Shown here one piece after another: positions 46,245 through 61,329 of a stretch of DNA of 64,000 nucleotides; the stretch's first letter is position 1; every line of letters starts with the position of its first letter. The notes under the pieces were generated by a model. It did no database searches and was not told the DNA's origin. It was given only the letters and a program-made list of their open reading frames with translations. The translations under genes and the position numbers were made by a program. The stretch covers positions 2,108,001 through 2,172,000 of the forward strand of contig NZ_CP119791.1 of the NCBI RefSeq assembly GCF_029338295.1. The letters run 5' to 3'. The stretch is from Haladaptatus sp. QDMS2 (GTDB lineage: Archaea; Halobacteriota; Halobacteria; Halobacteriales; Halococcaceae).

Positions 46245-48305
46245 ATGCACGGACAGAAATCCGCTCACGACGAAGCAATCTCGATACTCCTTGTCGAGGA
46301 CAATCCCGGTGATGCCCGTTTTATCAGAGAGTTATTCCGCGGTGTTGAAGAACTCTCTGAGCGCGCGCCGACTCCGGATCGAAACCGACTGACAGAGCAG
46401 GCGGTCAGTGTGCCCCCCACCGAGCCGACAATCGTTCACGAGACACGACTCACAGCCGGCCTCGAACGTCTCACAGACAGCCACATTGATGTCATTCTGT
46501 TGGACCTGAATCTGCCAGATAGCGGTGGGTTAGAGACGGTCGAAACGGTTCGAACGCATGTACAATCAATCCCAATTGTCGTGCTCACTGGCCTTCGTGA
46601 CCGGAACCTTGGGGTAGCGGCACTCCGCAAAGGGGCCGAAGAATATCTCGTCAAAGATGAAATCAACGCGGATATGTTGATTCGATCGGTACACCACGCG
46701 ATCGAGCGGAAAGCCCACGAACGAGAGCTCGTACAGTACCAAACACTCATCGAGACCGTGAGTGATGGCGTGTACGTCGTTGATGAGGAGTCGCGGTTCG
46801 TTCTCGTGAACGAGGCACTCGAATCGATAACCGGATATTCACGTGACACACTGCTCGGCGCTTCAGCTACGCGCCTGCTGACCCAGCCTAACAACGAGAC
46901 GGGCGACGAAGCCAGCAAGTCGAAACTGGCAGCCGAAAACCAGCCAGGAAAGATTGAAACAGAGCTACGAACCGCAGACGGCAGTTCGATTCCAGTCGAA
47001 ACGAACGTCACGCCGCTTCCACTCGGTGACGATCGATATGGGCAGGTGGGGGTCATCCGCAACATCACCGAACGAAAGGAGCGAGAGCACAAACTTGAGC
47101 GCCAGCGAAATCAACTTGCGATGCTCAACTCGTTAAACGAGCTCGTCCACGAAATTTCACACCTCATACTCGAATCGACCACCCGCAAAGAGATCGAGCA
47201 ACTGGTCTGTGAGCACCTTGCAAATTCAGATGCCTACGAGTTCGCCTGGATTGGTGATGTGACCTCCGACAACGAAACAGTCACCATGCGGGCCGAAGCC
47301 GGCGTCAATGGCTATCTCGATGCAACGACAGTTCGGGTCGGCGACGATGTTGAAGGACACGGCCCAACCGGGAAGGCAATTCGGACCGGCGAGGTTCAGG
47401 TTTCCCAGAACATCCACCGAAACCCGACCGATGAACCGTGGGCCGAACGGGCCTGCGAACACGGAATCGGTGCGTTTGCGGCCATTCCAATCGAGTACGA
47501 AAATACCCTCTATGGCGTGTTGAACATCTCTGCTGCGAAGCCAAATACGTTCAACCAGAACGAACGCACGGTCATCGCTCGACTCGGAGAGGTAATCGGC
47601 CACGCAATCAATGCCATCGAGCGAAAGCAAGCGTTGATTAGCGAAGAGGTGGTCGAACTCAGATTCCAGGTCCGAAACGTGCTCGGCGCAGAGACGCCCC
47701 ACGCAGGGACAATCACGTTCGACCGGACGATTCCACTTGGCGAGAACAAGTTTCTCCAGTACGGGACGGTGACCCACGAGGCAATGGAGACACTCGCCGC
47801 CTTTGTCTCCGAATTTCCGCATTATCGAGACGTGACACTTGACGACCCGGAAGCAGACGTATCTCGATTCGAAGTGCAGCTTTCAGGGCCGCCTGCCATC
47901 TCATCGGTTGCAGCCATCGGTGGGCGTATCGAATCTGTCGCGATCGAAAAGGGAGATATCAACATTGTGGCCCAGATTCCACCGGGTGCAAACGTTCGCC
48001 GAGTCGTCGACGCCGTCAAAGCGGAATATCCCCGTGCGGAGATACTAGCTAATCGTCGGACGACTCGTACCACCGAGCGAGCACAACGACTCGACCAGAT
48101 TATTCACGAGCGGCTTACCGATAAACAACGAGCTGCGCTCGAAACGGCCTATTTCGCTGGGTTCTTCGAATGGCCACGCAATAAATCAGGCGAAGATGTC
48201 GCCACGTCGATGGGGGTTGCCGCCTCAACGTTTCACGAACACATCCGCACAAGTCAGCGAAAACTCTTACGTGCGGTTTTCGATACTGACCACTCCCACG
48301 ACTGA
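46245..48305 (+). CDS. Receiver-PAS-GAF-Bat (HTH_10) transcription regulator
   Basis: The protein has 686 residues: a receiver domain (1-155; LLVEDNPGDARF, VILLDLNLPDSGG, VVLTGL, YLVKDE) with a 35-residue insert after the first helix, a PAS domain (about 160-285), a GAF domain (about 300-460), a bacterio-opsin activator domain, and a C-terminal HTH_10 (LTDKQRAALETAYFAGFFEW, GVAASTFHEHIRTSQRKLL). It is a likely output of the upstream kinase that directly controls genes. The last codons fall inside a perfect palindrome (48295-48314), perhaps a terminator or transposon-end scar. Confidence 0.9.
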   Translation: MHGQKSAHDEAISILLVEDNPGDARFIRELFRGVEELSERAPTPDRNRLTEQAVSVPPTEPTIVHETRLTAGLERLTDSHIDVILLDLNLPDSGGLETVETVRTHVQSIPIVVLTGLRDRNLGVAALRKGAEEYLVKDEINADMLIRSVHHAIERKAHERELVQYQTLIETVSDGVYVVDEESRFVLVNEALESITGYSRDTLLGASATRLLTQPNNETGDEASKSKLAAENQPGKIETELRTADGSSIPVETNVTPLPLGDDRYGQVGVIRNITERKEREHKLERQRNQLAMLNSLNELVHEISHLILESTTRKEIEQLVCEHLANSDAYEFAWIGDVTSDNETVTMRAEAGVNGYLDATTVRVGDDVEGHGPTGKAIRTGEVQVSQNIHRNPTDEPWAERACEHGIGAFAAIPIEYENTLYGVLNISAAKPNTFNQNERTVIARLGEVIGHAINAIERKQALISEEVVELRFQVRNVLGAETPHAGTITFDRTIPLGENKFLQYGTVTHEAMETLAAFVSEFPHYRDVTLDDPEADVSRFEVQLSGPPAISSVAAIGGRIESVAIEKGDINIVAQIPPGANVRRVVDAVKAEYPRAEILANRRTTRTTERAQRLDQIIHERLTDKQRAALETAYFAGFFEWPRNKSGEDVATSMGVAASTFHEHIRTSQRKLLRAVFDTDHSHD

Positions 48306-48314
48306 CGTCGTGGG
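48295..48314. terminator. Palindrome across the stop codon of the Bat-type regulator
   Basis: CCCACGACTGACGTCGTGGG is a near-perfect 20-bp hairpin that includes the TGA stop (48303-48305), followed by CGTTCTCCTC. Sequence and flanks are of the same type as IS1341-element ends (9602-9621). It may therefore be an insertion scar that reset the C-terminus, now acting as a terminator. Confidence 0.45.
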
Positions 48315-48536
48315 CGTTCTCCTCACGTCTTTGAGAATCGAACAGATAAGAGGCAACTAGTCGACACTGCAGGCAAGTGCCCCCACAAACGACACATTTC
48401 TAGAGTGCTAAAAATCAACATAGGCCACGGTAGATACCTCCAACAAGTTGTTTGTATGGTGTTGGATATTGAAAATAACAAACGCCGAAAATTTTGGGTG
48501 GTAGGATATTGATACTCGCGGAGAATTGAAGATGTA

Positions 48537-49016
48537 ATGATACCCACCCTCTCGGTAGTCACTGACCGGTTGCAGCACGTCATGTCCTTGTTGGCTCAGG
48601 GCCAGCCCACTCTCACTGACGCGAACGATTTCGACTTGAAAGACGCATCTGCAGAGGGTGAGAAGACTGTTGCACGAAACAGAACGGTTGGAGAAGAAAA
48701 CAAGATAGCGGTTGACCCTGCTGAGTTGCAGACACCCAGTGACGTTTTGGCTAAACTGGGACAGCTGCCAGAGGAGTTCGTCATCCACCTGCTCGAATCG
48801 AACGACGGACGACTGAAACAACAAGCGTTCACCGAGCTTACCGCGTGGTCACCCTCAACGACAAGTCGCCTCCTCCAAGAACTAGAAGAAGACGGACACA
48901 TCGTCCGTGTGCAGATCGGTATCGAGAAAATCGTCTACCTCCCTGAAGAGGCACCGACGAGTACGATCGAACCTCCACGTACGACATCCACCGAATTATC
49001 AGTCACCCACAACTGA
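48537..49016 (+). CDS. Winged-helix DNA-binding protein
   Basis: The 159-residue protein has a non-conserved acidic N-terminal half (1-75) and a C-terminal winged helix (about 80-140; FVIHLLESNDGRLKQQAF, WSPSTTSRLLQELEEDGHIV). This is the MarR/DUF7343-like pattern common in haloarchaeal regulators. It is a single-gene unit; the 230 bp upstream are AT-rich and hold no other gene. Target unknown. Confidence 0.72.
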   Translation: MIPTLSVVTDRLQHVMSLLAQGQPTLTDANDFDLKDASAEGEKTVARNRTVGEENKIAVDPAELQTPSDVLAKLGQLPEEFVIHLLESNDGRLKQQAFTELTAWSPSTTSRLLQELEEDGHIVRVQIGIEKIVYLPEEAPTSTIEPPRTTSTELSVTHN

Positions 49017-49093
49017 GGTCGTACGGGTGCATTCAGTGGGGCAAACCGGAAAGAGAGTTTTATAAACGGGTGAACGAATCTGACTTCGTTTTT

Positions 49094-50482
49094 CTACGGG
49101 CTTAGCAAGTCAGCAAGTCGATTACAATCGAACAGTTCCCACTGATCATCGAGCGATTCTCGAAGTCCCGGTGTGAATCCTGCCTTAGAGAACAGCGCGT
49201 ACGTCTCCGTCCGTCCGCCCGTGTGCCAGCGAACCGATTCCGCTTTCGTCCGAAGTTCATCGGCGAGCGTCTCGCCCACAGGACTGTTCGTCCACTTGCA
49301 TTCTCCGAGAAGAATTTGGTCGCTTCCCGGTGCGAGCGCGACAATGTCGATTTCGTCTTCTCCGTACCACCACGAACCAACCTGGGAATACGGTTCAAGT
49401 TCTCCGCGCCGCACTGTCTCCCAGACTGCCTCTCGACAGATGCGTTCGAACGTCACACTCACGTGCCGTGGGAGGTCTGGTTGGATCGTTTTTTCGTATA
49501 CCACCTGTGGCACTTCCTCGATACCAGAGCGGTTCGGTTCGATATACCGGAACCAGAAGCGGAGAAATTCATCGTCGATTTCGTATATCGAGCGCTTGGA
49601 TTTCTTCGCTGACTCCGTCACTGGAATGCGCCGTTTGATGAATCGCAGTCGACGGAGTGTCTGGAGGTACCGCGACAGTGGCCCGACGTCGATACCCGTT
49701 GCCCCAGCGATTTCGTTCGGAGTCGAGTGACCGGTTGCAATTGCTTCGAGAATACTCATATACCGTCCTGGATTTCGAACTTCAGACCGAAGCAAGAACT
49801 CAGGTTCGTTGTAGAGAATCGATCGCTGAGAGAGAACGTGATTGTAAACGTTCGATGAGAGGTCAGTTGTATAATCGAATAACGTCACATAGAGTGGGGT
49901 TCCACCGGTGATTGCGTAGGATCGAACTGCATCCTCGAACGAATACTCGATAACGTTGCGAGCCGCCCTAAACGAAAACGGATCAAGGTCGAGTTGTGAG
50001 GTTCGACGACCAAAAAGTGGACTCTCATGACTGAGTACCGCAGACTCCATCACGCTAATACTCGACCCACAGAGGATGAGTGTTGAATTCGTCTCAGAAA
50101 GTACCTCATCGACGAATCCCTGGACGTAGGACGGAAGCGAATCGTTCGAATCAACCAAATATGGAAACTCGTCGATGACGAGCGTCAAATCCTCCTGGGC
50201 AAGGTTTTCGCCCACATAGTCGAACGCGTCTGGCCAGTCTGTAATTTGAGGAAGACGATCATCGTACCGTGTTGCAACCTGCTCGACGAATTTCTCCAGT
50301 TGGCGAGATTCCGACTCTTGTGCTGCGAGATAGTAGACGTGTGGCCGGTCAGCGCAGAATTCTTTCAACAGTGCAGTCTTTCCAACCCGGCGACGACCGT
50401 ACAGTACGATAAACGAGTGACCTGGAGAGTCGTGTTCCTCGACCAATGTCGCAAGCTCGGTTTTCCGGTCGTAGAAGGTCAT
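49094..50482 (-). CDS. Archaeal ATPase with C-terminal DUF234 nuclease-like domain
   Basis: The protein has 462 residues. The P-loop is FIVLYGRRRVGKTALL (about 23-38), Walker B is LTLVIDEFPYLV, and sensor-1 is LILCGSSISV. A winged helix follows (about 255-310). The C-terminal DUF234 domain has GSWWYGEDEIDIVAL and ILLGECKW, which fit a PD-(D/E)xK nuclease core (D, E-x-K). Such ATPases are abundant in archaeal accessory regions, and their role is not settled. The start codon lies inside a pair of palindromic sites, suggesting a leaderless, tightly controlled transcript. Confidence 0.85.
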   Translation of the reverse strand: MTFYDRKTELATLVEEHDSPGHSFIVLYGRRRVGKTALLKEFCADRPHVYYLAAQESESRQLEKFVEQVATRYDDRLPQITDWPDAFDYVGENLAQEDLTLVIDEFPYLVDSNDSLPSYVQGFVDEVLSETNSTLILCGSSISVMESAVLSHESPLFGRRTSQLDLDPFSFRAARNVIEYSFEDAVRSYAITGGTPLYVTLFDYTTDLSSNVYNHVLSQRSILYNEPEFLLRSEVRNPGRYMSILEAIATGHSTPNEIAGATGIDVGPLSRYLQTLRRLRFIKRRIPVTESAKKSKRSIYEIDDEFLRFWFRYIEPNRSGIEEVPQVVYEKTIQPDLPRHVSVTFERICREAVWETVRRGELEPYSQVGSWWYGEDEIDIVALAPGSDQILLGECKWTNSPVGETLADELRTKAESVRWHTGGRTETYALFSKAGFTPGLRESLDDQWELFDCNRLADLLSP

Positions 50483-50509
50483 TATCTAGATAATGATTAT
50501 CGCGATAAT
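50480..50509 (-). promoter_or_regulatory. Two TTATCNNGATAA palindromes at the ATPase start codon
   Basis: TTATCTAGATAA (50482-50493) and TTATCGCGATAA (50497-50508) are perfect 12-bp palindromes of one consensus, centres 15 bp apart. The first is embedded in the larger palindrome CATTATCTAGATAATG that contains the ATG. A TTAAG box lies about 30 bp upstream of the ATG, so transcription probably starts at or near it, and a protein bound here would block the promoter. Confidence 0.6.
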
Positions 50510-50871
50510 GACTTAACGGTTTTTGTTGGACCACGAGACAGACGGGCGTGACAGCAGTCTTGCACAACACAGTAGTAGCTAGCAAGAAGTTGCGGTACCT
50601 CGGAAACGTGTCTGTCGAACCCGTCTTGCCACGTCCGGTAGCCAGTCACCTTCGTCGCGGTCGGCCACTGCTGTTTGATGAGCAGCGTGTTGTTCACTGA
50701 ATACTCGTGGAACTTGCTCTGAATGGTGAGCCAGGCTTTGAACTCCGCGCTGGCTTGTGCTTCGTCAGTGAGGTCCTGGAGGGCAGCAAGCCACGATTCG
50801 ATGGTGCGGTGCATCTCGTCTGTGCGGGTGTCGTGTTCGTCGAACGACACCGCTGTGTGCTCGGTTGCCAT
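50497..50871 (-). pseudogene. N-terminal fragment of an ArdC-like antirestriction protein
   Basis: From ATG 50871 the frame encodes about 87 residues that resemble the ArdC N-terminal ssDNA-binding domain (FKAWLTIQSKFHEYSVNNTL, TKVTGYRTWQDGFDRHV). It then turns into unrelated sequence and stops at 50497. Full-length relatives continue with a metallopeptidase domain. The gene is truncated near 50610, next to the ATPase promoter. ArdC-like genes belong to plasmids and integrative elements. Its promoter module (50900-50928) is intact. Confidence 0.65.
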
Positions 50872-50899
50872 GCGTAGTTCGCGGGCACGCTCGTGCGTG

Positions 50900-50928
50900 G
50901 TCCCACGCCCCTCGGGGACCGATAAACT
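50900..50928 (-). promoter_or_regulatory. Shared promoter module, copy 1 (ArdC-like fragment)
   Basis: On the minus strand the site reads AGTTTAT followed three bases later by CCCC-GA-GGGG and CGTGGGAC, and lies 57 bp upstream of the ATG at 50871. AGTTTAT fits a haloarchaeal TATA box, and the C4/G4 palindrome would lie between it and the transcription start. The same arrangement recurs at 51838-51867 and 54055-54083. Confidence 0.7.
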
Positions 50929-51107
50929 GGGTTGGAGGGGTCTACAGGAATCAAGGCAGAGTGCCTCGGGGTCTACGAGAGAACGTGCTCTCTCGTGATG
51001 ACGAGAGGGCTTGCCGGCTCGAACCACTTGACCCTGAGGGTGAATGCCGACACAACTATTACGCATGTCACCGTCTCTCACGCTACAGTTGGGCGAGTTA
51101 CATTCCT

Positions 51108-51405
51108 TGACATCCTCCCCGCGCTGAAGCACGGGGCTTTCTCCTTGACTTTCCGTAATTCGTCGCAACTGCATGCAGTTGCGGAGGAATGTGGTGCCTC
51201 TCAAAACCCGCGTCTTCGACGTGGTGAGACGGGTACTATCGGGTGGGGTGGAGCCACCGACCCTCACGGACGTATCGGACGTTCGGGTGTTACTTCCAGA
51301 CGACCTAACGGAAGTCCGAGGGGGATTAAATTCGCCTGCGACCCCACGGCCCGTTTTTGGGCGTGCGGTCAAAACGGTGAAGCCTCGGGGCTAGTCCCCG
51401 AGGTA
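51108..51405 (-). mobile_element. Relic IS1341-type right end and remains (element D)
   Basis: Read on the minus strand, the stretch ends in CCCCGTGCTTCAGCGCGGGG (51117-51136, one mismatch) followed by GAGGATGTCAA, the same right-end signature as the TnpB element. A strong hairpin CCTCGGGG-CTAGT-CCCCGAGG (51383-51403) marks the other side, next to the stop codon of the SWIM gene. The frames inside are interrupted, and no TnpB motif is left. A further hairpin pair with a TGATGA linker lies at about 50974-51020, outside the element. Confidence 0.5.
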
Positions 51406-51407
51406 CT

Positions 51408-51812
51408 TCACGCAACTTCCTCCTGTTCAGCCAGGTAACACTCCCAGCAGGTGAACCCGGGAAAGCATTCCTCGCACGCAGGCTCGTCCGTTTCCGTTGG
51501 CTCCGCGGGCGCGACGCCACCATCGGTCGCGACCCGCTCGACCTTCTGTGCTGCCTGTAAGATGGGTGCCCGAATCGCCACGGCGAGTCGATGCTTGCAC
51601 GCACCTTCGAAGCGCGCATTCGCTGGGCATTCACAGTGTGTGGGAACGCCATGTCTCACCGCCACGAGATACTCGTGATTTTCGGGGTCGGCGTAACTCC
51701 CGTTTCTGACGAGCACGCCTCGTTCGGTGAGCGAGAACTCGAAGGCTTCGTATTGGGCGCGTTTCAGTGAGCGATTCGTGTACGCCAGTCGATTGAGAAT
51801 GTGTGTTGACAT
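51408..51812 (-). CDS. SWIM zinc-finger protein
   Basis: The 134-residue protein has a SWIM motif, CxCx(n)CxH, in HCECPANARFEGACKH (about residues 59-74). A second Cys cluster follows at the C-terminus (CEECFPGFTCWECYLAEQEE). SWIM domains bind DNA or proteins. Stand-alone SWIM proteins are frequent in haloarchaeal plasmids and integrated elements beside ArdC and TFB genes, as here. It carries promoter module copy 2. The hairpin at 51383-51403 probably terminates it. Confidence 0.82.
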   Translation of the reverse strand: MSTHILNRLAYTNRSLKRAQYEAFEFSLTERGVLVRNGSYADPENHEYLVAVRHGVPTHCECPANARFEGACKHRLAVAIRAPILQAAQKVERVATDGGVAPAEPTETDEPACEECFPGFTCWECYLAEQEEVA

Positions 51813-51837
51813 GGGGATACAGCGGAGCCGGTGACAG

Positions 51838-51867
51838 GCCCCGCACCCCTTGGGGGGCAGATAAACT
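51838..51867 (-). promoter_or_regulatory. Shared promoter module, copy 2 (SWIM gene)
   Basis: On the minus strand AGTTTAT is followed by CTG, then CCCCCC-AA-GGGG and TGCGGGGC, 55 bp upstream of the SWIM ATG at 51812. The layout matches copies 1 and 3 almost base by base, while the sequence between module and start codon differs. That argues for selection on the module itself rather than recent duplication of the whole region. Confidence 0.7.
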
Positions 51868-51985
51868 CCCAGAGAAGCGACTGAGAACGACCGTCGTCTC
51901 AGAATCGAGACCCGGCCACTCTAGCCAAGCCACAAGCACCGAAGCAGTACGATACTGAAACCCACCTCAATGGCGCACACCAAAT

Positions 51986-52015
51986 ATTTATTATCTATTG
52001 GGTGATAGCCAATAG
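51986..52015 (+). promoter_or_regulatory. Promoter and operator of the TumE-like toxin-antitoxin pair
   Basis: ATTTATTAT (51986-51994) fits a TATA box. It is directly followed by the perfect inverted repeat CTATTGG-gtgatag-CCAATAG (51995-52015). The operator thus covers the expected transcription start. AGGAG (52024-52028) right before ATG 52029 gives a ribosome-binding site. The HTH protein of the pair is the natural candidate to bind here. Confidence 0.65.
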
Positions 52016-52028
52016 TAGAACACAGGAG

Positions 52029-52328
52029 ATGGCAGATGGCGACGTGGTACTCGACCGGAATTTCGAATTCGACGCCGAAGCTGGGACCCGCGTCGAGCTA
52101 TTCGCCGTCGAGAGTTCGTCGTATCCCGGTGGGTTCTACTACCGATTCCAGTACTACAATCCCGAAGAAACCGAGCAACTCCTTCGATACGACACTGCTC
52201 ACGATTCCGCTGTCGGCCACCATCACCGCCACAAAGATGGGACGATCGAAGGTATCGCGTTCGAGGGGTTGCAAGCACACGTTGCTCGCTTCCGCCAGGA
52301 GGTACTCACAATCCATGACCACAGATAA
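52029..52328 (+). CDS. TumE-like (DUF6516-type) toxin family protein
   Basis: The 99-residue protein has the alpha/beta pattern of haloarchaeal TumE/DUF6516-type proteins: ELFAVESSSYPGGFYYRFQYY, LLRYDTAHD and HHHRHKDGTIEGIAFEGL, ending in FRQEVLTI. Relatives are annotated as toxins of two-gene toxin-antitoxin modules, possibly ribonucleases. The family call is from memory of this pattern and should be tested. The next gene overlaps by 14 bases and codes for an HTH protein, as expected for the antitoxin. An in-frame ATG at 52002 lies inside the operator and is less likely. Confidence 0.68.
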   Translation: MADGDVVLDRNFEFDAEAGTRVELFAVESSSYPGGFYYRFQYYNPEETEQLLRYDTAHDSAVGHHHRHKDGTIEGIAFEGLQAHVARFRQEVLTIHDHR

Positions 52329-52752
52329 CCACGAACCCGCACCCGAGGAGATGAACTTCCCTGAGACACTTCGCATCACCATCGAGAGTCCTGAAGATGC
52401 GTTCGATGGGGCAATCGACGCCGCTGGCATCGCCGAAGGTGGCTCACAGACGCCCGCAGTCATCTCATTTGCGAACACGAAAGGATTCCGTCGCTTGCTC
52501 ACCGACCGGCGATTGGAACTGTTGCGCTCGCTGATGACCGAACCCGCCAGTAGCATCACCGCGCTAGCAACCCGACTCGACAGAAATTACTCAACAGTCC
52601 ACCAGGACGTCGAAATCCTTGCGGAGTACGGAATCGTTCACTTCCGAGCGGAAGGCCAATCGAAGCAACCGTTCGTCCCGTACGAGACCGTCGAGTTCGA
52701 TGTCACGATACAGGCACACCACGCCGGGAAAGATTCCGAAGCACCCCCGTGA
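52315..52752 (+). CDS. HTH protein, probable antitoxin of the TumE-like pair
   Basis: The 145-residue protein has a winged helix in its centre (about 60-115; RLELLRSLMTEPASSITALA, LDRNYSTVHQDVEILAEYGIV) and an acidic N-terminus. The C-terminal FVPYETVEFDVTIQ is a strand-rich tail. The 14-bp overlap with the toxin gene suggests coupled translation. It is likely to neutralise the toxin and repress the pair via the palindrome at 51995-52015; both roles are inferred from gene order and operator position. Confidence 0.72.
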   Translation: MTTDNHEPAPEEMNFPETLRITIESPEDAFDGAIDAAGIAEGGSQTPAVISFANTKGFRRLLTDRRLELLRSLMTEPASSITALATRLDRNYSTVHQDVEILAEYGIVHFRAEGQSKQPFVPYETVEFDVTIQAHHAGKDSEAPP

Positions 52753-52961
52753 ACTCGGAAGATTTGCCAAGATTAACTCCTCAGTAGTGCGATAGTCAGT
52801 ATGCCAGTAGAACGAGAGAACTGAAGAGATCTATATTCAGCGTGCGCTTCCTCATCAGGCTACAATCTGGTCTTGACGTTGAGAAAGGGGCCTTAGCGCC
52901 TTATTTCAGGTAAACGGTTTCAACAGAGCCAATTCGGTCCGAGAGCTGGACGAAGCACACC

Positions 52962-53105
52962 TCAGAATTCGAACGTGACCACCTCCGTCGGGCCACAGTA
53001 CGGACACCGTGAATCGCCGTGATCGAGGGTCATCCCGCAGTGGCGACACTCGTAAACGGTATTGTCTGTGACCTCGCTAAACCACCACTCTGTCAGCCAT
53101 CCCAT
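52962..53105 (-). CDS. 47-residue zinc-ribbon protein downstream of TFB
   Basis: A frame from ATG 53105 to TGA 52962-52964 encodes 47 residues: MGWLTEWWFSEVTDN at the start, then CRHCG (YECRHCGMTL) and CPYCG (SRCPYCGPTEV), two knuckles of a zinc ribbon. The ATG lies one base after the TFB stop, so the two genes must be co-transcribed. The tryptophan-rich head could be a protein-binding helix. It may assist or modulate the TFB; no family is known to me. Confidence 0.72.
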   Translation of the reverse strand: MGWLTEWWFSEVTDNTVYECRHCGMTLDHGDSRCPYCGPTEVVTFEF

Positions 53106-53106
53106 C

Positions 53107-54030
53107 TCAGACCGCCTCGGCGAGGGTATCACGGTGTTTTCGGAGTGTGCACGTCGAGACGTCTGCCGCCGCTGCCAAGTTCACTTGAAGGACTCGCTCC
53201 TCGGCATCTCTACTCGCCAATTCGAGACAGGCTGCAGCTACGCCAGCGGGGTTACAGCCGTTGCCGATGCCCTGTTTGCGTGCTTGTTCGATGTAGTCGA
53301 GGGCCCGGTGTCGAACAGTCGGAGAGAGGTTAAGCGACGAAGCGAGTTGCGGGATGAATAGCTGTGGCGTGGGAGGGGGCGTAGGTAAGCCCAGTTCCGT
53401 GTTCAGCACACCAAATGCGTTGCGGACAGAAGCCTCGTCACACTGAGCGAATCGAGCGATTTCTGCGATGGACCGCGGAAGAGAATTACACCGACACACC
53501 GCGTACACACACCCAGCCGCGATTGCTTCGAGTGAGCGACCTCGGAGCAAATCATTGTCTTGAGTTGTCCGAAAGAGCGCACACGTCTGGTCGCGGATGC
53601 TCCGCCCGAGGTCGAGACCACTGACGATTCGGCGAATCTCGTAGAATCCACGGACTTGGTTACGTTCACGCGTCGTCGCGCGCTGTGCGCGCCCCTGTTC
53701 TCGACGCAGTCGTCTGAGTTGACGTTGCTTTTCGGGTGAAAGGCTGCGTCCCTTGCCGTCCTGGTGCTTGCCGATACTCGTCGACAGTCCCTGGTCGTGA
53801 AAGGAGGGAGTGAGTGGTGCCCCTGTCCGTTCGGGGTTAGATTGGTCTTCGGGGAACGACCGCCACTCCGGACCAGGGTCAATAGCTTGGTCAGACAGGA
53901 TGAGGCCGCAATCGTCGCAGACTGTTTCGTGCGTATTTGTGGTTACTCTGCCGTCGCACTCGGGGCAGGAATGTTGGGAAGTCTGTACGTCTTTGTCGAA
54001 CGCCGTTTCGTAGATGTCTCTCGTCGCCAT
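53107..54030 (-). CDS. tfb: Transcription initiation factor B (TFB)
   Basis: The 307-residue protein has an N-terminal zinc ribbon (CPECDGRVT...CDDCGLIL, about 22-45), a B-finger region (RTGAPLTPSFHDQGLSTSIG, about 68-88) and two cyclin-like repeats (about 115-205 and 212-300; ATAAGCVYAVCR-like EAIAAGCVYAVCR and NPAGVAAACLELAS). TFB binds the TATA-TBP complex and recruits RNA polymerase. Haloarchaea keep many TFB copies, some in accessory DNA; this one belongs to the accessory region. It is controlled by promoter module copy 3 and co-transcribed with a small zinc-ribbon gene. Confidence 0.93.
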   Translation of the reverse strand: MATRDIYETAFDKDVQTSQHSCPECDGRVTTNTHETVCDDCGLILSDQAIDPGPEWRSFPEDQSNPERTGAPLTPSFHDQGLSTSIGKHQDGKGRSLSPEKQRQLRRLRREQGRAQRATTRERNQVRGFYEIRRIVSGLDLGRSIRDQTCALFRTTQDNDLLRGRSLEAIAAGCVYAVCRCNSLPRSIAEIARFAQCDEASVRNAFGVLNTELGLPTPPPTPQLFIPQLASSLNLSPTVRHRALDYIEQARKQGIGNGCNPAGVAAACLELASRDAEERVLQVNLAAAADVSTCTLRKHRDTLAEAV

Positions 54031-54054
54031 TCGAAGTCACGAGGAGCAAGGAAA

Positions 54055-54083
54055 GCCCCTCGCCCCTCAGGGGCGCATAAACT
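54055..54083 (-). promoter_or_regulatory. Shared promoter module, copy 3 (TFB gene)
   Basis: On the minus strand the site reads AGTTTAT, GCG, CCCC-TGA-GGGG, CGAGGGGC, 53 bp upstream of the TFB ATG at 54030. It agrees with copies 1 and 2 in the TATA heptamer, in the C4...G4 palindrome and in the trailing G-rich tail. Confidence 0.7.
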
Positions 54084-54186
54084 GGCGTGACGGACGGATC
54101 TCCGCATCCTGTGCGAAAACTGGGTTAAACTCGTCTACAATACTGCTATAGCGGGATTTCCATCGGAAACAAAGGGGCCACGACCA

Positions 54187-54287
54187 GCTTCAACCCGTCT
54201 TCGGTCCTTCTGTAACCGTGTTCATCGACGAGGCCGTGGAACGGGAAGATGCCGCTTCAACCCGTCTTCGGTCCTTCTGTAACCGTG
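54187..54287. CRISPR. Two-repeat, one-spacer mini-CRISPR
   Basis: Two perfect 34-bp repeats at 54187-54220 and 54254-54287 begin GCTTCAACCCGTCTTCGG and continue TCCTTCTGTAACCGTG. Read on the minus strand, the repeat ends in GGGTTGAAGC, like haloarchaeal type I-B repeats. If the repeat proper is 30-31 bp, the single spacer is about 36 bp (roughly 54218-54253), a normal size. The spacer is free of stops in one frame (VFIDEAVERE...), as expected for a protospacer in a gene. No cas gene and no further repeats lie in the window. Confidence 0.72.
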
Positions 54288-54513
54288 GCTGATTCAGATG
54301 CCACAGATCTCCTTCTCCGTGAATTCACTCAAGTGTTTCCGTCGACCGTCAATTTTGGGTTTCCCCGAGGGGATCGACGGAGATAAGGTAAATCTGCTGC
54401 CAGGCTCGTCGCCAGAACCGTATGGGTTGAAGCGCACCGTCCGAACAGGTGCTGCCAGTCTCCGAATACACACCCGCCAAAAACTTACATATCTGATATT
54501 AGTAGAATGGACA

Positions 54514-55608
54514 ATGAAGCTGAATATTCTCATTGTCCTCTTATTGGTGCTGGCCGGTTGTAGCACCGCTCCGACAGACCCGACGTCACAACCCTCAGTT
54601 GAAACTGATTCGCCTACGACGGCTACCCCTCAACCAACGACGCAACCACCGCCTCCATCGACAACAGCGGTTCGTTCGACGACCACGTCACAGCCCACGA
54701 CCGCGACCCAAACCACAGCGGCGCTCGCGAACAACCCCTGGCAACAAGAGACGATCGCTGTCGCGATAGCACAACCAAACAGTGACGGCCGAGACTACCG
54801 ACCACTCGTTCGGGACGCGCTCGACTACTGGGAACTCAACAGTTCGACCTACACCGAGTTCGATGTCGAGTTCGAACTCGTCGAATACCCCAAACAAGCA
54901 GACGTGATTATCGAATTCCATCTGACAGTGTCCTCCTGTGGCTACCAGACCACCGAAAAATTGCTCGGATGCGCCCCGGTATATTCACCAGAACGGACCT
55001 TCCCAATTCCAACCAGAGTGAGCATCGAAGCGGGATACGTCAACAGTACCACCATCGAAATCATCAAACATGAACTCGGACACACCCTCGGATTACGACA
55101 CCAGTCCTCACCTCCGTTCATGGAAGCCTCCGGATACGCGACTCGACTGACAATGCCGAACGCAACCGAACGCCGAATCCCATACAAGGAAGAGACAGTC
55201 ACTGTCTATATCGACTACTCGGATGTGCGCGATGGCATTCAATATTCGTATGAAAACGCCATACAGCACGCTCTCGATTACTATAACGATGGGGCAGGAG
55301 GTACAGAGCCTGAGAGCCTTGAGCTAAAAGTGGTCGACAATCCCGAAGACGCGAATATCGTCATTCGCATTGCAGACGACCGTCGTGACCGGTTCGAAGA
55401 TATACGTGTGTTCGGGTATGACGAGGACAGCGACCCTGAATTGGAATATTACAATAACGCAACGATCGTCGTGAACGGGTACAGCTCACCAGACACGGGC
55501 TGGATTGTTGGATACTATCTTGGGTATGCTCTTGGGGCAACGTCAGCTGATGAGCTGGCACCACCCTTCCGCGATGGTGAAATCGATGATGGGAACTGGT
55601 GGAAGTAA
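54514..55608 (+). CDS. Lipoprotein with tandem metalloprotease domains, second one degenerate
   Basis: The 364-residue protein is a lipoprotein by its lipobox LAGC (C16), followed by a Thr/Pro-rich linker to about residue 70. Domain 1 (about 78-225) has the zinc protease motif HELGHTLGLRH (186-196), as in matrixin/metzincin-like proteases, with a methionine shortly after (PPFM). Domain 2 (about 227-360) repeats its strands and helices (HALDYYNDG vs DALDYWELN; KVVDNPEDANIVIRI vs ELVEYPKQADVIIEF). There, however, YYLGYALGATS (334-344) replaces the zinc motif, so it cannot bind zinc. It is probably anchored outside the cell. Confidence 0.85.
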   Translation: MKLNILIVLLLVLAGCSTAPTDPTSQPSVETDSPTTATPQPTTQPPPPSTTAVRSTTTSQPTTATQTTAALANNPWQQETIAVAIAQPNSDGRDYRPLVRDALDYWELNSSTYTEFDVEFELVEYPKQADVIIEFHLTVSSCGYQTTEKLLGCAPVYSPERTFPIPTRVSIEAGYVNSTTIEIIKHELGHTLGLRHQSSPPFMEASGYATRLTMPNATERRIPYKEETVTVYIDYSDVRDGIQYSYENAIQHALDYYNDGAGGTEPESLELKVVDNPEDANIVIRIADDRRDRFEDIRVFGYDEDSDPELEYYNNATIVVNGYSSPDTGWIVGYYLGYALGATSADELAPPFRDGEIDDGNWWK

Positions 55609-55648
55609 GCGTGAAACGATTTCTCTGAACCTTTTCAATAGACGGTCG

Positions 55649-56185
55649 TCATGCAGCGCCATCAGCGAATGCTTCGGCGACTGGTTCGAGTGCCTGCAGG
55701 ATGATTTCGGCCTCAAGCGGAGAGAGATCGAGTTCACGGGCCGCGATTCGGCTGTTGACTGTCCCCTCGACGTACTCGGAGGCGTACGTGAGGGCCACCG
55801 CGAGGCCGTCGAGGCCGTGGCGCTCGATGTAGACGTCGATATCCCCGTTTTCGCTCCGACGTGCAGCGGCCGCGATGAGCGCTGGCGTAATCGTCTGTGT
55901 TTCACCGTTTGTCGAGAGCGTGAGCGAGACCGCCTCCGCGTCGTATTCAAAGGGGCGTTGGTCACGGGTTTTCTTGATGAAGCCAGCAGCGTCGAGCTTC
56001 TGGACGTAGTCGTAGGCGGTGCCCTGGGGGATAGCGAGTTCGGCGACGAGTTCGGCGACCGTCACGGGGCCGTGCTGGTACGCGTAGAGGTAAATCCGAG
56101 CGAGTGCAGGCGTCTCGAGGAGGTCGACGACTGTCTGGAGCTGCCCGATGGGTGGCCGACCTGGCTGTGGTGGTGAGTGTGCCAT
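55649..56185 (-). CDS. ArsR/TrmB-like winged-helix regulator
   Basis: The 178-residue protein has an N-terminal winged helix (about 15-80; PALARIYLYAYQHGPVTVAEL, LAIPQGTAYDYVQKLDAAGFI). The C-terminal half has GDIDVYIERHGLDGLAVALTYASEYVEG and ends ARELDLSPLEAEIILQALEPV. This two-part layout is a common haloarchaeal regulator family (DUF7437-like). It is convergent with the protease gene and divergent from the next regulator, sharing a short AT-rich promoter region (56186-56334). Confidence 0.8.
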   Translation of the reverse strand: MAHSPPQPGRPPIGQLQTVVDLLETPALARIYLYAYQHGPVTVAELVAELAIPQGTAYDYVQKLDAAGFIKKTRDQRPFEYDAEAVSLTLSTNGETQTITPALIAAAARRSENGDIDVYIERHGLDGLAVALTYASEYVEGTVNSRIAARELDLSPLEAEIILQALEPVAEAFADGAA

Positions 56186-56334
56186 CTCAATTATGAATTA
56201 TGGATAAATCATAATAAGAATTCCGCCGAACCCTTTTGAGAGGTAAATGGGGGGAAATACCGTTCTCAGAGCATAGACGAACTCCAGCAGGTGTTGACTC
56301 ACCACTTATTGTTGCGCTCTCGGTCATCAGACAT

Positions 56335-56796
56335 ATGAGCGAGAGCAATGGGACTGCCGATGCAGGGCCGTTCGCAGAGCAACAGCGGCTTTTCAAACTC
56401 CTCTCGCAGGACACGCGCCACCTCATCATTCAAGAGTTGCTGGGACATCCCGCCCATCTCATGTCCCTTGCCGAACTCGAGTACATGGTCGGCAAGAGCC
56501 AGGCAGCGATCAAAGACCAAGTAGAGACACTCATCGAGGCAGGGATTCTCGCCCAGTACACGTACGAACCTAGCAAAGGGAAACGAGACCTTCCCTCGCA
56601 GTTCTACGGGTTTACCACACGCGGGGTTGAGATTCTCTACGACTACAAATATCTCCGTGGAGTCCCGATTGCCCGCGCGCTGTACGAGAATACGCGGAAG
56701 ACAGAGAAAGTCGAGCGACACGAAGCAGCACCACGTCCAACGCTTCCCACGGCTGTCGTCGAAGCACTCACCTTCGACGAACCAGACCTCGAGTGA
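56335..56796 (+). CDS. ArsR-like winged-helix regulator
   Basis: The 153-residue protein starts at ATG 56335 and has a winged helix at about residues 15-90 (LFKLLSQDTRHLIIQELLGH, LMSLAELEYMVGKSQAAIKDQVETL in parts, LIEAGILAQYTYEPS). The C-terminus FTTRGVEILYDYKYLRGVPIARALYENT is typical of this haloarchaeal group. Its divergent neighbour is also a regulator, so the two may cross-regulate. An upstream in-frame ATG (56236) lies in the shared promoter region and was not used. Confidence 0.8.
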   Translation: MSESNGTADAGPFAEQQRLFKLLSQDTRHLIIQELLGHPAHLMSLAELEYMVGKSQAAIKDQVETLIEAGILAQYTYEPSKGKRDLPSQFYGFTTRGVEILYDYKYLRGVPIARALYENTRKTEKVERHEAAPRPTLPTAVVEALTFDEPDLE

Positions 56797-56946
56797 ATAG
56801 TCAGCTTATCGATAGCAAACGCATGTCCACCACCGCACCACGGTTGTGGCTGCGCGCACAGCGAGGCAACGAGCGAGCACGGAGCGGAGGGTGGGGAGGA
56901 GGGCTGGAGGGTGGACGGCGACAAAAAAAGAGGCTTTGTGGTTAAC

Positions 56947-57888
56947 CTATTTCCACCACTCGCCTCGCTCTGGGAATTCGATATTCGACCACCGTGTCAG
57001 TGCAATCGAACACCGTCCTTCGTACCAGTTCTTCGCCGCCGCCCTGAATCGCACACGCTCGCCTTCCCGAACCAATGGTTGTTTTGATTTCTTCCACACC
57101 GTGAATCGGATTCTCCCACTCTCATCTTCGAGGAGTCCAACTGATTGAATCGCTGGATGGGATGGCTCCCACAACTGTTTGACCTGTCCTTCGACCGTGA
57201 CTTCGCCTCTGTCCACGTCCTCGACTTTCGCGATGGGAACGATTCCTCCCGGTCGCATCCACTGGACTTCGATGACTGCGACGGCTGCACTCACTAACTC
57301 CGCACCTCCGACCACCCGCTCTGCAATCTGTTTCGAAAGCACCGCTCGGGACACACTGCTTTTCACCATCCGGTGGATGCGCGTCGCCTGCTGATTCACC
57401 GCCGCCAACTCCTCGCGACTCAGACCCTCACGAGGGTCTTCTCGGCCTGGCTCTAATCGGGCATCCACGCTGGCCGCCCTCCTTTCGAACTCAACGTTCC
57501 GTTCTTTGCTTTGTTCGCTCACCCTTCGCCGTGTCCGCGCCTCCCGGTCAGATTCTTGCCTATCGTCCCATCGTTTCCGCGTTTTCGCAATCTCCCACTC
57601 GCGTGCTCGCATGCGCTCCTCTGCCGCAAGGGTCAGTCCAGTCATTCCCACATCCGGGTGGTTCGTATCCACCTTCGCCTGAATCTCCATCTCGACCGTG
57701 GGCCGCAGCTCAGGGCGTTCTTCAACCGCCGCAAACTCATATTCACTTCTCTGTTCGACCGAAGCTTCTTGTCCGATAGTGCGTTTAGTACTCATTGGTT
57801 GCTCCAATTGCTCTGGGGTAACCGCTCGAAGGCGCTCACTCGGCGTCTTCTTTTGAACCACAAACTCTCCAGCCGTGGCTCTCAACAC
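56947..57888 (-). CDS. OB-fold nucleic-acid-binding protein, RPA-like
   Basis: The protein has up to 313 residues. The N-terminal two thirds are highly charged and helical, with a long coiled-coil-like stretch (about 85-150, EERMRAREWEIAKTRKRWDD). The C-terminal third is an OB-fold (about 215-310; IAKVEDVDRGEVTVEGQVKQ, VGLLEDESGRIRFTVWKKS, VRFRAAAKNWYEGRCSIAL), close to archaeal RPA-type single-strand binding domains. It probably binds single-stranded DNA, and such proteins occur in haloarchaeal plasmids. The start may be ATG 57888 or ATG 57795 (MSTKRTIGQ), the latter after a low-complexity head. Confidence 0.75.
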   Translation of the reverse strand: MLRATAGEFVVQKKTPSERLRAVTPEQLEQPMSTKRTIGQEASVEQRSEYEFAAVEERPELRPTVEMEIQAKVDTNHPDVGMTGLTLAAEERMRAREWEIAKTRKRWDDRQESDREARTRRRVSEQSKERNVEFERRAASVDARLEPGREDPREGLSREELAAVNQQATRIHRMVKSSVSRAVLSKQIAERVVGGAELVSAAVAVIEVQWMRPGGIVPIAKVEDVDRGEVTVEGQVKQLWEPSHPAIQSVGLLEDESGRIRFTVWKKSKQPLVREGERVRFRAAAKNWYEGRCSIALTRWSNIEFPERGEWWK

Positions 57889-58423
57889 AACTCGTCACAT
57901 TCCTGCGCGCTCGCTTCGCGCCTTCGCAAGCGACCCCGGGAGCGAAGCGAGCGCGCCTGTGAACCAACACAAACGAGGCCGCGCGAAACGCGACCCGCCG
58001 ACGAAAGCGTCCAGCACGCAAGCCGGTTTCGTGTCCGTCGACCGAAGGGAGACGCAACCGAAAGCGCGCTTGGTGCTGGCGTCGAAACCAGACGCCCGGA
58101 ACGGTGAGCGAAGCGAACCGCACGCCCGGAATGGTCGGTCGCGAGCGAACGAGGCCCGACCGAAGGGAGGGGCTCGGTGCGGAGGCGCGGTCGCTCGAGC
58201 GAGGCGAGAAGTGACACAAACACTTTTCATTTCGGTTTTTAAGCAAAACCAATCAACTGATTGCCAGGCGGACGCAAATAAAACGAGACGGTAATGCAGA
58301 TTACCGATCTAAATATAGGTCTCACGCATATCTGGAAAGTCCACCAACGCAAATAGCGATGACTAAATGATATAAAAGTGTAATTTATATCTTTTTGACT
58401 CGTATGTTTCTCTTGGGTGTTAA
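57889..58423. other. GC-rich, gene-free stretch followed by AT-rich promoter region
   Basis: Positions 57895-58215 are dense in GAGCGAA/GACCGAAGGGAG/GGTCGC-type words, with long open frames on both strands that give only Arg/Ser/Pro-rich shadow proteins. I see no gene, and the recurring GACCGAAGGGAG (58029, 58151) and related words look like low-complexity expansion. From 58250 the sequence turns AT-rich and should contain the promoter of the membrane protein at 58424. Confidence 0.4.
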
Positions 58424-59254
58424 ATGATACCTGTAATTATTGGTGCCCTTGCGGTTGGTGGAATAATCGCAATAGGTGCTGTAGCAACCGGATCGAATAG
58501 TAGCCCGCCAAAACCTCCAACACAAATTCCGATTCGTGATGACAGAGAGGTAGTCTGGAATTCGTCGATAGACAAAATAACCGACGATAACAAAGCAAAA
58601 AAGATTGCGGCCAGTGCTGCAATTACTGGTACATCTGGATCAATTCTCGAAACTGCCAGGAGAGCGGGCATTGATCGCCACGCGGAAGCCGGGCTGGTGG
58701 AGGAAATACACCTCAAAGAAATTGCACGTCAGATGGGAGGTAAAGTTGTGGAGAATCGTTCACCCGTGTTCGCACCTGACGGTGGAGTCGATGGCGTGGT
58801 GGAAATTGGAGAAGGTGTACTTAAAAGAGTACAAGTGAAACACACCGCTGAGAAGGTTGGTGAGAGCTTAATTAAGCAGTACCCTGATGTCGACGTGTTC
58901 GCATCCTCTAGTGGTTTCAAACCCAATGTGGACTTATCGGCCACGGGAAAAAGCGGCATTACAATCAACGATTGGTCAGTTCGTAGCAAAGCGACCCTAG
59001 AGAGTAGTCGAATAATTAGAGGGGTAAACCGACTAGGTGCGGGATTCATCGCCCGTGCGAAGTCAGTGATGAGTGTAGCGATTGGCGCTGTAAGTCATGG
59101 AGTGCACTGGTACCTTGCCCTTCCAGTCTTCCAACAAATCGCTCTTGGGATAATTGTCGTCATTGCGGTTGTTGGAACGGGTTATCTGATCTGGAGATGG
59201 TACAAAGGATCAGAAACTCCGCGCCACTCACATGGCGTTTCAGCCGCAATTTAG
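58424..59254 (+). CDS. Membrane-anchored Mrr-like (PD-(D/E)xK) nuclease candidate
   Basis: The protein has 276 residues. An N-terminal helix (about 3-22) and a C-terminal helix (about 238-257), with another weak hydrophobic stretch at 213-234, flank a soluble core. In it, KEIARQMGGKVVE, DGGVDGVVEIG (D123) and RVQVKH (Q137-V-K139) reproduce the order of Mrr-type restriction nucleases (helix, DGGxDG, QxK). The C-terminal part of the core, DVDVFASSSG, fits a following strand. A nuclease tethered at the membrane could act on entering DNA. The fold call rests on these motifs only. It is transcribed alone. Confidence 0.6.
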   Translation: MIPVIIGALAVGGIIAIGAVATGSNSSPPKPPTQIPIRDDREVVWNSSIDKITDDNKAKKIAASAAITGTSGSILETARRAGIDRHAEAGLVEEIHLKEIARQMGGKVVENRSPVFAPDGGVDGVVEIGEGVLKRVQVKHTAEKVGESLIKQYPDVDVFASSSGFKPNVDLSATGKSGITINDWSVRSKATLESSRIIRGVNRLGAGFIARAKSVMSVAIGAVSHGVHWYLALPVFQQIALGIIVVIAVVGTGYLIWRWYKGSETPRHSHGVSAAI

Positions 59255-59516
59255 CTGAATTTCCGGGTTATTTTTTGTACAACATAGGGAACAAAGGATT
59301 TGTGGCTCTGTTGAAATCCTCAAGACCTGTCAGAAGTGCCGTGCAAGATATAGAGGGTGTATGCAGCAAACTGTGGTCGTTCCTCTCACGCCTTCCGTGA
59401 CAAAACGGAGGGGAGTTCCCTGTGCGTCTTGCCGATCCAGAGTAGTACGCTGATATAACCAATACCCAACCGGTTTAGGTGTAGAAACATCTCTATGAAG
59501 AGAGGTCGCTTACTAA
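59255..59516. other. Intergenic region containing an IS-end-like sequence
   Basis: No gene is supported. GGCTCTGTTGAAATCCTCA (59304-59322) resembles the ends of haloarchaeal insertion sequences and matches the reverse complement of 61456-61474 at 17 of 19 positions. The following AGACCTGTCAGAAGTGCC-type sequence is probably a decayed IS remnant. The last 60 bases hold the promoter of the next gene. Confidence 0.4.
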
Positions 59517-59753
59517 ATGGGATTCCTTGATTCGTTCGGTGCGTTAGCGAGTAGTATCGTCGCGGCAATTGTTATGTTAGCGCTTGCCATCCTCAGCTTC
59601 TTCGTGACGGTTTTCATCGTGCAAGTAGGGGCTGGTTTGGCTGGCTACTCACCGAGCGGGGACTTCGTTGTTCTGTCTGCCGCACTTCTCGCAACAGGTG
59701 CGATCGTCGCTGGAGCGACGCCGATGACCAGTCTCAGCGGGATCTCCGGGTAA
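59517..59753 (+). CDS. Small two-helix membrane protein
   Basis: The 78-residue protein has one long hydrophobic stretch (SIVAAIVMLALAILSFFVTV) and a second (FVVLSAALLATGAIVAGA), joined by GLAGYSPSGD. It has no known domain and is flanked by IS-like remnants on both sides. Function unknown. Confidence 0.55.
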   Translation: MGFLDSFGALASSIVAAIVMLALAILSFFVTVFIVQVGAGLAGYSPSGDFVVLSAALLATGAIVAGATPMTSLSGISG

Positions 59754-60015
59754 ATTCGACCGAAGAGTCGGTCGTTCTCCAGGACGTTGTGATTCACCCG
59801 CTGCACTTGGGGGTGAGATGCATGTCCGAGTCGCGCTCTGTATGCAGCACGGCCACTGGAAGCTACCCAGTCGCTGTCAGGAGAGGTATGCGAGATACAG
59901 AGCATGAAGTCAGCACAGTACCCTGCTCCTTTCAGGTATTCCCTACTGAATCAGGTGGGCAGTTGAGCGGGACCCAATCACGGGTTTCATACACCTTCTG
60001 GCGTATGAGTGATGT
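59754..60015. other. Intergenic region with IS remnant words
   Basis: No gene is supported. CGCTCTGTATGCAGCACGG (59834-59852) is 18/19 identical to 61416-61434, which itself sits beside the IS-end-like sequence at 61456. This stretch is therefore probably another scrap of the same insertion sequence. Confidence 0.4.
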
Positions 60016-60534
60016 ATGAATACATACTCGATTTTGGTACCGTCACTTATCGCAGTCGTAATTCTGTTGACATTGAGTGCGTTCTTCTCTAGTAGTGAGT
60101 CAGCGATCTTTTCGCTCCCGGATGAATGGGTGCAGACCGCGACGGACAACAGTTCGAACGAAAGCCACAGGCTCGAACAACTCCGCGCGAACCCGCACCG
60201 ACTCCTTGTCACGCTGTTGGTCGGAAACAACCTCGTCAATATCGCCATCACCAGCATCGTCACACTCCTGGTCGCGCGGTTTCTCCCTCCCGGTTTTACC
60301 GTCGTGATTGCGACACTCAGCGTGAGCGTTCTCATCCTCGTCTTCGGAGAAATCGTACCGAAATCCTACGGACTCGCTCATGCAAGGTCCTGGAGTCTCC
60401 GCGTCGCGCGCCCGGTTTCGTACGTTGAACGGGCACTGGGGCCACTCGTCGCGGTGTTCGATATCGTCACCCGGTGGCTGACGACACTTGTTGGGGGCGA
60501 CCAACATATCGAGAAGTCATATCTCGAAGACTGA
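60016..60534 (+). CDS. DUF21 (CNNM/CorC-type) membrane domain, lacking CBS domains
   Basis: The 172-residue protein matches the CNNM transmembrane domain: SAFFSSSESAIFSL in the first helix region, RLLVTLLVGNNLVNIAITSI and VFGEIVPKSYGLAHA. Normal family members continue with a linker, two CBS domains and a CorC/HlyC domain (over 400 residues), and transport or sense magnesium and cobalt. Here the protein stops soon after the membrane domain, with IS-like sequence (GTGCCGTGCAAGACTCGCGC) following at about 60590. It is either a truncated relic or a rare stand-alone membrane domain. Confidence 0.72.
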   Translation: MNTYSILVPSLIAVVILLTLSAFFSSSESAIFSLPDEWVQTATDNSSNESHRLEQLRANPHRLLVTLLVGNNLVNIAITSIVTLLVARFLPPGFTVVIATLSVSVLILVFGEIVPKSYGLAHARSWSLRVARPVSYVERALGPLVAVFDIVTRWLTTLVGGDQHIEKSYLED

Positions 60535-60674
60535 GCGACCGTCCTCTCCTCAGACTGTATTGACCTGATCGACACCCATATGTTGGAGCAGGTGCCGTGC
60601 AAGACTCGCGCTATTAGTTCAGCAGACACACCAGAAACTATCAGACAACGTTTGGGTGGCTTAAACCGTGGACG

Positions 60675-60815
60675 TCACTCGTTTTCGAGGGCGTCGTAGA
60701 TGTCCCGGTTCGCGTCCCGGTCGCCCGCCGCGACCCGTCGGACGAGTTCTCGCCGGATGTCTTCCATCACCTTATCGAGCGGAGAACCGGACTCTGCACC
60801 TTCCTCAATCGCCAT
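60675..60815 (-). CDS. 46-residue partner of the Doc toxin (putative antitoxin)
   Basis: A frame from ATG 60815 to TGA 60675-60677 encodes 46 residues, MAIEEGAESGSPLDKVMEDI at the start and RRELVRRVAAGDRDANRDIY next, fully helical and strongly charged. It lies 25 bp after the Doc gene on the same strand. Phd-type antitoxins usually precede Doc, so the order is reversed here, yet size and position make it the best candidate antitoxin. No similar family is known to me. Confidence 0.6.
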   Translation of the reverse strand: MAIEEGAESGSPLDKVMEDIRRELVRRVAAGDRDANRDIYDALENE

Positions 60816-60840
60816 GCGCGAACTTTCGTCCCGAGCGGGA

Positions 60841-61329
60841 TTAATCGTTCGGGTCCGTCGAGCTACCAGTCAGTTCGTCCAGTCCATATCTGATGAGATC
60901 GGCACGCCACTCCTCGATCTCACCGGCGAGGTCGATCTCCTTGGTATGAGATCGAAGGTAGTCGACGACCTCCGCTTCATCGACGGTTGCTTCGTCAGTA
61001 CCGAACTGCTTGAGGATATTCCTGATTTCGTCGTTGTACTCGAGGCGGTATCCGTTGAGGAAGTAGAACACGACCACCGTGTTGAGCGCGGTCCGCTTGT
61101 TGGCGTCCACGAATGGGTGATTCGCGACCAGCAGTCGGAGGAGGTGGAATGCTTTCTTGTGAATCGTCTCCGGTGCCGTCTCGAAATGTCCTTCTTTGAT
61201 GTAGTTCAGGGCGAACTCGATGTCGCCACGGTTCTTGATACCGGAATGCGTGTCCGGATACTCCGACACGATGTCGTTGTGGATGGTGAGAACATCCTCG
61301 ACAGAGGGATACCAGAACGAGTCGGCCAT
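60841..61329 (-). CDS. doc: Doc/Fic-type toxin (death-on-curing family)
   Basis: The 162-residue protein has the Doc motif H71-PFVDANKRTA81, the K-containing variant of the Fic motif found in Doc kinases. The preceding helices (IKNRGDIEFALNYI, HKKAFHLLRLLVAN) also fit the family. P1 Doc phosphorylates EF-Tu, and an archaeal homologue may act on aEF1A or another target. The C-terminal 25 residues are an acidic extension. It is followed by a 46-residue gene that may be the antitoxin. Confidence 0.88.
   Translation of the reverse strand: MADSFWYPSVEDVLTIHNDIVSEYPDTHSGIKNRGDIEFALNYIKEGHFETAPETIHKKAFHLLRLLVANHPFVDANKRTALNTVVVFYFLNGYRLEYNDEIRNILKQFGTDEATVDEAEVVDYLRSHTKEIDLAGEIEEWRADLIRYGLDELTGSSTDPND

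Follow-up and report, generated by a model that had tools for sequence, protein, structure and literature searches.

An orphan type I-B CRISPR array in Haladaptatus sp. QDMS2 carries a spacer matching cas7 and adjoins a cas2 remnant

Introduction

The subtype I-F orphan arrays of Escherichia coli, CRISPR3 and CRISPR4, carry spacers directed at cas1, cas3 and csy2, and were proposed by Touchon and Rocha in 2010 to act as 'anti-CRISPR' (PMC2886076). Exclusion of I-F systems in E. coli is reported as experimentally shown by Almendros et al. 2016, according to PMC8616872 and PMC5972030, and on those accounts the experimental demonstration concerns E. coli CRISPR3/CRISPR4 only. Among haloarchaea, Haloquadratum walsbyi DSM 16790 is described in PMC5228507 as keeping a residual array after the loss of all cas genes. 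A further relative is CreA of the CreTA systems (PMC8501985, PMC9458426), a minimal one-spacer array of I-B type which has divergent, degenerate repeats and no leader, matches a toxin promoter in part and requires a resident Cascade. We found no example of an anti-cas array from archaea or from subtype I-B in the open-access literature, a search which does not in itself prove their absence.

Here we describe a short array within a 64,000-nt stretch of the chromosome contig of Haladaptatus sp. QDMS2 (NZ_CP119791.1, 2,108,001 to 2,172,000; hereafter the window). In anatomy it is like E. coli CRISPR3/CRISPR4, being an orphan array with an anti-cas spacer, whereas any likeness of function is putative. 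It differs from them in belonging to archaeal subtype I-B, in matching cas7, in having a single intact spacer, in keeping a stump of cas2, and in the TAC found beside its protospacer, a PAM without known activity. It is a Cas-less haloarchaeal array, as is that of H. walsbyi, which PMC5228507 does not report to be cas-directed. With CreA it shares the minimal one-spacer layout, but its two repeats are identical and nearly the whole spacer matches cas7; it is no regulator of the CreA type.

Results

Two perfect type I-B repeats and a decayed third

A preliminary description of this locus, drawn from the sequence of the window alone, had proposed a mini-array on the strength of two identical 34-bp sequences. 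These are indeed exact copies (54187-54220 and 54254-54287, 67 bp from start to start), for which shuffled windows give an expectation of 0 copies. It had also left the border between repeat and spacer in doubt, as both copies continue into the same CGTG. The shared bases are real, but they do not belong to the repeat, since on one side they are part of the cas7 protospacer (GAACACG in cas7) and on the other they are the last bases of the leader, whose relatives terminate in GGCCACC or GGCCATG. The true repeat is 30 nt long and has the minus-strand sequence GTTACAGAAGGACCGAAGACGGGTTGAAGC, with the leader-proximal repeat 1 at 54254..54283 and the identical repeat 2 at 54187..54216, enclosing a spacer of 37 nt (54217..54253, minus strand).

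Several features assign the array to type I-B. The repeat has the GTTACAG...GGGTTGAAGC form, the spacer length falls within the 34-39-nt range of the class, and a leader precedes the array on its 5' side. The haloarchaeal I-B form suggested in the preliminary description is corroborated by the genome of another haloarchaeon (G143), where an array whose repeat differs at one of 30 positions flanks an I-B cas operon. The Rfam model CRISPR-DR24 also aligns to the full length of the repeat on the minus strand, although the match is weak and below the gathering score.

Beyond repeat 2, at a unit spacing of 64, lies a degenerate terminal repeat that agrees at 20/30 positions (54123..54152, minus strand), and the 34 nt between them (54153..54186, minus strand) are by position the distal, older spacer. 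Of the 127,940 positions scored in the window, three reached 20/30 or more: both perfect repeats and the degenerate one, which apart from them is the sole site above 18/30. This decayed repeat one unit away indicates that the array formerly held at least two spacers. Searches with the distal spacer returned no significant match and hence no target.

The repeat is not dispersed. The genome (3.88 Mb in 3 contigs, with a completeness of 99.96%) was searched throughout with up to 3 mismatches allowed and gave no copies beyond these two, nor were other I-B arrays found elsewhere in it. The exact repeat was absent from the viral contig collection (six free positions allowed) and from the genome contig collection, no second genome with the same array was found, and both the repeat and Cas7 are missing from two further genomes of the genus.

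A leader and a cas2 stump adjoin the array

The 150 bp that lie 5' of the array on the minus strand align to the leaders found behind cas2 in other haloarchaea whose I-B loci are intact. The match extends at 73% over 139 nt to G143 (BLAST E 2e-20) and at 76% over 113 nt to Halocatena salina, with ~65-67% identity over 175 nt to these cas2-side leaders. The leader of the window (54284..54386, minus strand) contains a conserved core, GTCGACGGAAAC, which is invariant among the leaders compared. Next to it, and in the place and strand expected, 54387..54437 (minus strand) encodes the last ~12 codons of cas2, as revealed by tblastn against residues 70-86 of Halocatena salina Cas2 (E 2.5e-4). The stop of this stump is mutated, such that the window reads YGSGDEPGSRFT where the Halocatena protein terminates in YGPGDEPGSRFT; the rest of the gene is deleted, and none of it remains upstream. 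From the leader homology together with the last codons of cas2, the array can be understood as what is left of an I-B locus that was once whole, and not as the free-standing solo array that the preliminary description had envisaged as one option. The simplest reading of these sequences is that a complete I-B locus would once have stood here, and that a deletion then removed it as far as the final codons of cas2.

The place where cas genes would be expected is now filled by a gene for a predicted lipoprotein (54514..55608, plus strand) with a matrixin-like metallopeptidase domain (Pfam Peptidase_M10, marginal). Downstream of the array is a TFB gene of the TFIIB family (53107..54030, minus strand; Pfam TFIIB), a neighbour that had been noted in the preliminary description. 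It does adjoin the array, but the proximity appears incidental: homologues occur on Haladaptatus plasmids with no adjoining array, a link between the two was treated as coincidence, and the gene is probably an unrelated neighbour. The region 48000-62000 of the window is a low-GC, plasmid-like block (~51-58% GC), while GC content is 60-70% in most of the window's first 36 kb. The pair of SWIM and TFB genes in this block recurs on MPF_T-typed plasmids of Haladaptatus sp. DYSN1 and YSMS36 (L091, L092). Together, the decay of the distal unit and the plasmid-like, low-GC DNA beside it fit an accessory region in flux. The block also holds a Fic/DOC family gene near the array (60841-61329, minus strand), possibly the toxin of a toxin-antitoxin pair. 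One of the Haladaptatus plasmids (L092, minus strand, ~400-430) has a sequence that agrees with the I-B repeat at 22/30 positions, upstream of a TATA-binding-protein gene and with no second unit adjoining.

Cas proteins are not detected in the host

Searches of the genome for Cas protein families (Pfam for Cas1) detected no Cas1, with a query that was positive in 9 of 14 control genomes, and no Cas7, with one positive in 7 of 18 genomes of the family. Cas3 and Cas6 were likewise not found with queries positive in other genomes. With cas2 present as a stump alone and none of these four found, the genome shows no functional cas operon, and the array sits in a host without the cognate cas genes searched for. 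A mini-array with no cas genes nearby, as first described, is borne out, and the dependence on a distant Cas set that had been suggested as one option is not. In our collection, ~26 haloarchaeal plasmids carry I-B Cas7b, which makes the arrival of I-B systems from outside plausible.

The intact spacer is a piece of type I-B cas7

The 37-nt spacer corresponds to the sense strand of a type I-B cas7 (csh2) gene, over the codons GIFPFHGLVDEH. A blastn comparison of the array with plasmids aligned the spacer to cas7b genes on three plasmids from haloarchaea. Among 392 genomes of the order, the top match of the spacer outside the array (95% over the spacer) falls in an open frame (...IKYGIFPFHGLVDEHGAS...) encoding a Cas7/Csh2 protein, on contig PXRT01000012.1 (L007/L064) of the uncultured MAG Halobacteriales archaeon QS_6_64_34. 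Here 35/37 positions agree, including all of the first 20 bases, and both differences are synonymous and at third codon positions. Most other cas7 genes compared agree at 28-32/37 positions, and 18 of the 21 cas7 loci reach at least 28/37. Against the same cas loci, a control set of 785 distinct spacers drawn from haloarchaeal loci, the majority of them cas-linked, gave no more than 77%, except for two self-matches of unmasked array DNA, compared with 94.6% for the spacer of the window. The intact spacer thus corresponds to a cas gene from the array's own subtype. As the crRNA would carry the cas7 sense, it would pair with the template strand of the DNA and not with the mRNA.

The preliminary description had proposed to look in haloarchaeal viruses, plasmids and chromosomes for a protospacer with a TTC-like PAM. 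A target was found in cas7, but phage records and IMG/VR (pattern search) yielded no convincing virus source for this spacer, and neither spacer had a convincing virus or plasmid target other than cas7; the best match of the intact spacer in its own genome outside the array has an E of 0.006 over 28 bases. The adjacent triplet is likewise not TTC, being TAC in 19 of 21 cas7 genes and TAT in the other two. In Haloferax TAT is active as a PAM and TAC is not, and TAC is reported to be over-represented at natural matches of Haloferax spacers (PMC4390866). Comparing the spacers of related I-B systems with phages, from which a PAM might have been deduced, gave no matches. The Haloferax seed rule, a 10-nt seed in which a mismatch at position 6 is tolerated (PMC4390866), is satisfied by the cas7 genes of both QS_6_64_34 and G143, the latter having its sole seed mismatch at position 6.

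A second orphan array carries an anti-cas3 spacer

Further short arrays were chosen by the similarity of their repeats, blind to the content of their spacers. One of them, in a genome of the same genus as Halocatena salina (G380; L023/L075), is an orphan I-B array of three repeats with a leader, located at ~1130050-1130210 (L075; G380:C1:1120001-1140000). Its leader-proximal spacer, ACCTCGATTATCGAACAGACGCGGGAGATTTTCGA, reads TSIIEQTREIF and matches I-B cas3 at 32/35 positions; the triplet before the protospacer is TAT in two of the three best cas3 matches and TTC in the third. The cas3 detected in G380 itself is divergent, lies elsewhere in the genome and agrees with the spacer at 23/35. The two arrays are alike in repeat family, leader core, leader-proximal anti-cas spacer and the lack of any adjacent cas gene noted, and differ in the targeting of cas3 with a TAT PAM, in the divergent cas3 elsewhere and in that no cas2 stump is seen upstream in G380. 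No spacers of the other mini-arrays compared with cas loci (L018/L056, L020, L034, L057) exceeded the control, leaving L023 as the one that matched. The anti-cas3 spacer suggests recurrence, although two cases do not make a rate. In IMG/VR no virus-borne mini-arrays were found with the same anti-cas7 or anti-cas3 spacers.

Among the other arrays, plasmid unnamed3 of Halomarina sp. BCD28 (L056) has at 2940-3060 a one-spacer mini-array with one degenerate repeat, ~1.3 kb from a TFB gene. Plasmid unnamed3 of Halocatena marina (L057) has near 3000 a mini-array of three repeats whose two spacers match no cas locus compared and contain inverted-repeat-like sequence (GAAAGCGGTGTAAGTCCGCTTTC and GTATCCTCGGGATAC).

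Discussion

The locus is composed, in order, of a cas2 tail, a leader, a repeat, an anti-cas7 spacer, a second repeat, a decayed spacer and a decayed repeat. The anti-cas7 spacer is the one that is intact and was added last. We postulate, at what we judge to be even probability, that this stump of a lost I-B locus is still transcribed and excludes incoming compatible I-B systems by way of cas7. Upon import of such a system by a mobile element, RNA from the resident array would be processed by the newcomer's Cas6 and Cascade, which would guide the incoming Cas3 to the cas7 gene that arrived with it. The outcome would be cleavage of the newcomer or an aborted acquisition. On this view the array would be a cas-exclusion device, silent until foreign Cas proteins come in. 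In favour of exclusion, perfect repeats flank the spacer and the leader core is conserved. The cas7 match well above the control, the Cas proteins not found in the host, the homology of leader and cas2 stump to intact loci, the seed agreement, the plasmid-borne I-B systems, the anti-cas3 spacer of G380 and the E. coli precedent speak for it as well. Against it count the decay of the distal repeat and spacer, and the failure to find the same array in a second genome. Its weak point is the adjacent TAC, which is not a proven interference PAM, and for this reason we keep the passive alternative that follows at nearly equal weight.

This alternative, which we consider a serious contender somewhat short of probable, is that an active I-B system mistakenly took a spacer from its own or a closely related cas7, that the cell survived by deleting its cas genes, and that the array is the fossil of this event and plays no part today. 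The cas2 stump adjoining the leader is consistent with such a history, as it marks a locus once complete at this site, and so is the leader-proximal position of the anti-cas7 spacer, from which it would be among the last acquired. The degenerate distal repeat fits a fossil too, as does the TAC flank, which makes interference uncertain; and escape from targeting through deletion of the whole cas cassette has a precedent in Haloferax (PMC3432209). Two observations fit it less well. First, two perfect repeats and a recognisable leader persist despite a cas2 remnant so decayed as to have lost its stop. Second, the anti-cas3 spacer of the G380 orphan array is unmatched by the cas3 detected in its host, for which self-targeting gives no direct explanation. 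A passive scar and an exclusion device would share their history and differ in present function alone, and are thus not mutually exclusive.

The remaining explanations fare worse. A guide of the CreA/CreR kind, with which a crRNA-directed Cascade represses a gene instead of cutting it, is very improbable here. Minimal haloarchaeal arrays do act in this manner (PMC8501985, PMC9458426) and a PAM outside the standard set could favour a complex that binds but does not cut, yet Cas6, Cas7 and Cas3 were not found in the genome, and the repeats are identical where those of CreA are highly divergent. Moreover, the near full-length match lies inside a coding sequence, where crRNAs of Haloferax cause only slight repression (PMC4946936), and the 28-base match noted above is the best that its own genome offers. 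Slighter still is the prospect of a functional solo array served by a distant or plasmid-borne Cas set in ordinary antiviral defence, which would suit the I-B form and orientation of the repeats, but not a nearly complete three-contig genome that yielded no Cas1, Cas3, Cas6 or Cas7, nor spacers with no convincing virus or plasmid match except cas7. Lastly, a chance or non-CRISPR dispersed repeat with a coincidental cas7 match is refuted by the zero expected copies, the leader homology, the cas2 stump and a spacer match far above the control, and even the weak Rfam match counts against it.

Exclusion may extend beyond this genome. It is conceivable, and we put it forward only tentatively, that archaea have a recurrent strategy by which haloarchaea, after loss of the I-B cas genes, would keep leader-driven mini-arrays with spacers against central cas genes (cas7 in this genome, cas3 in G380), such that incoming and often plasmid-borne I-B systems would destroy themselves.

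In the open-access literature consulted, anti-cas orphan arrays have so far been an Escherichia I-F story, and the same anatomy is found here in archaeal I-B, together with a scar in the DNA from which it can be seen that the array persisted beyond the cas operon to which it belonged. A long-standing question thereby becomes testable outside E. coli, namely whether self-directed spacers fix and enforce the loss of cas genes, and whether what remains of former CRISPR-Cas systems bars new ones from certain lineages. If true, this would help to explain the patchy distribution of haloarchaeal I-B loci, of which the Cas7 match in 7 of 18 genomes of the family is an instance.
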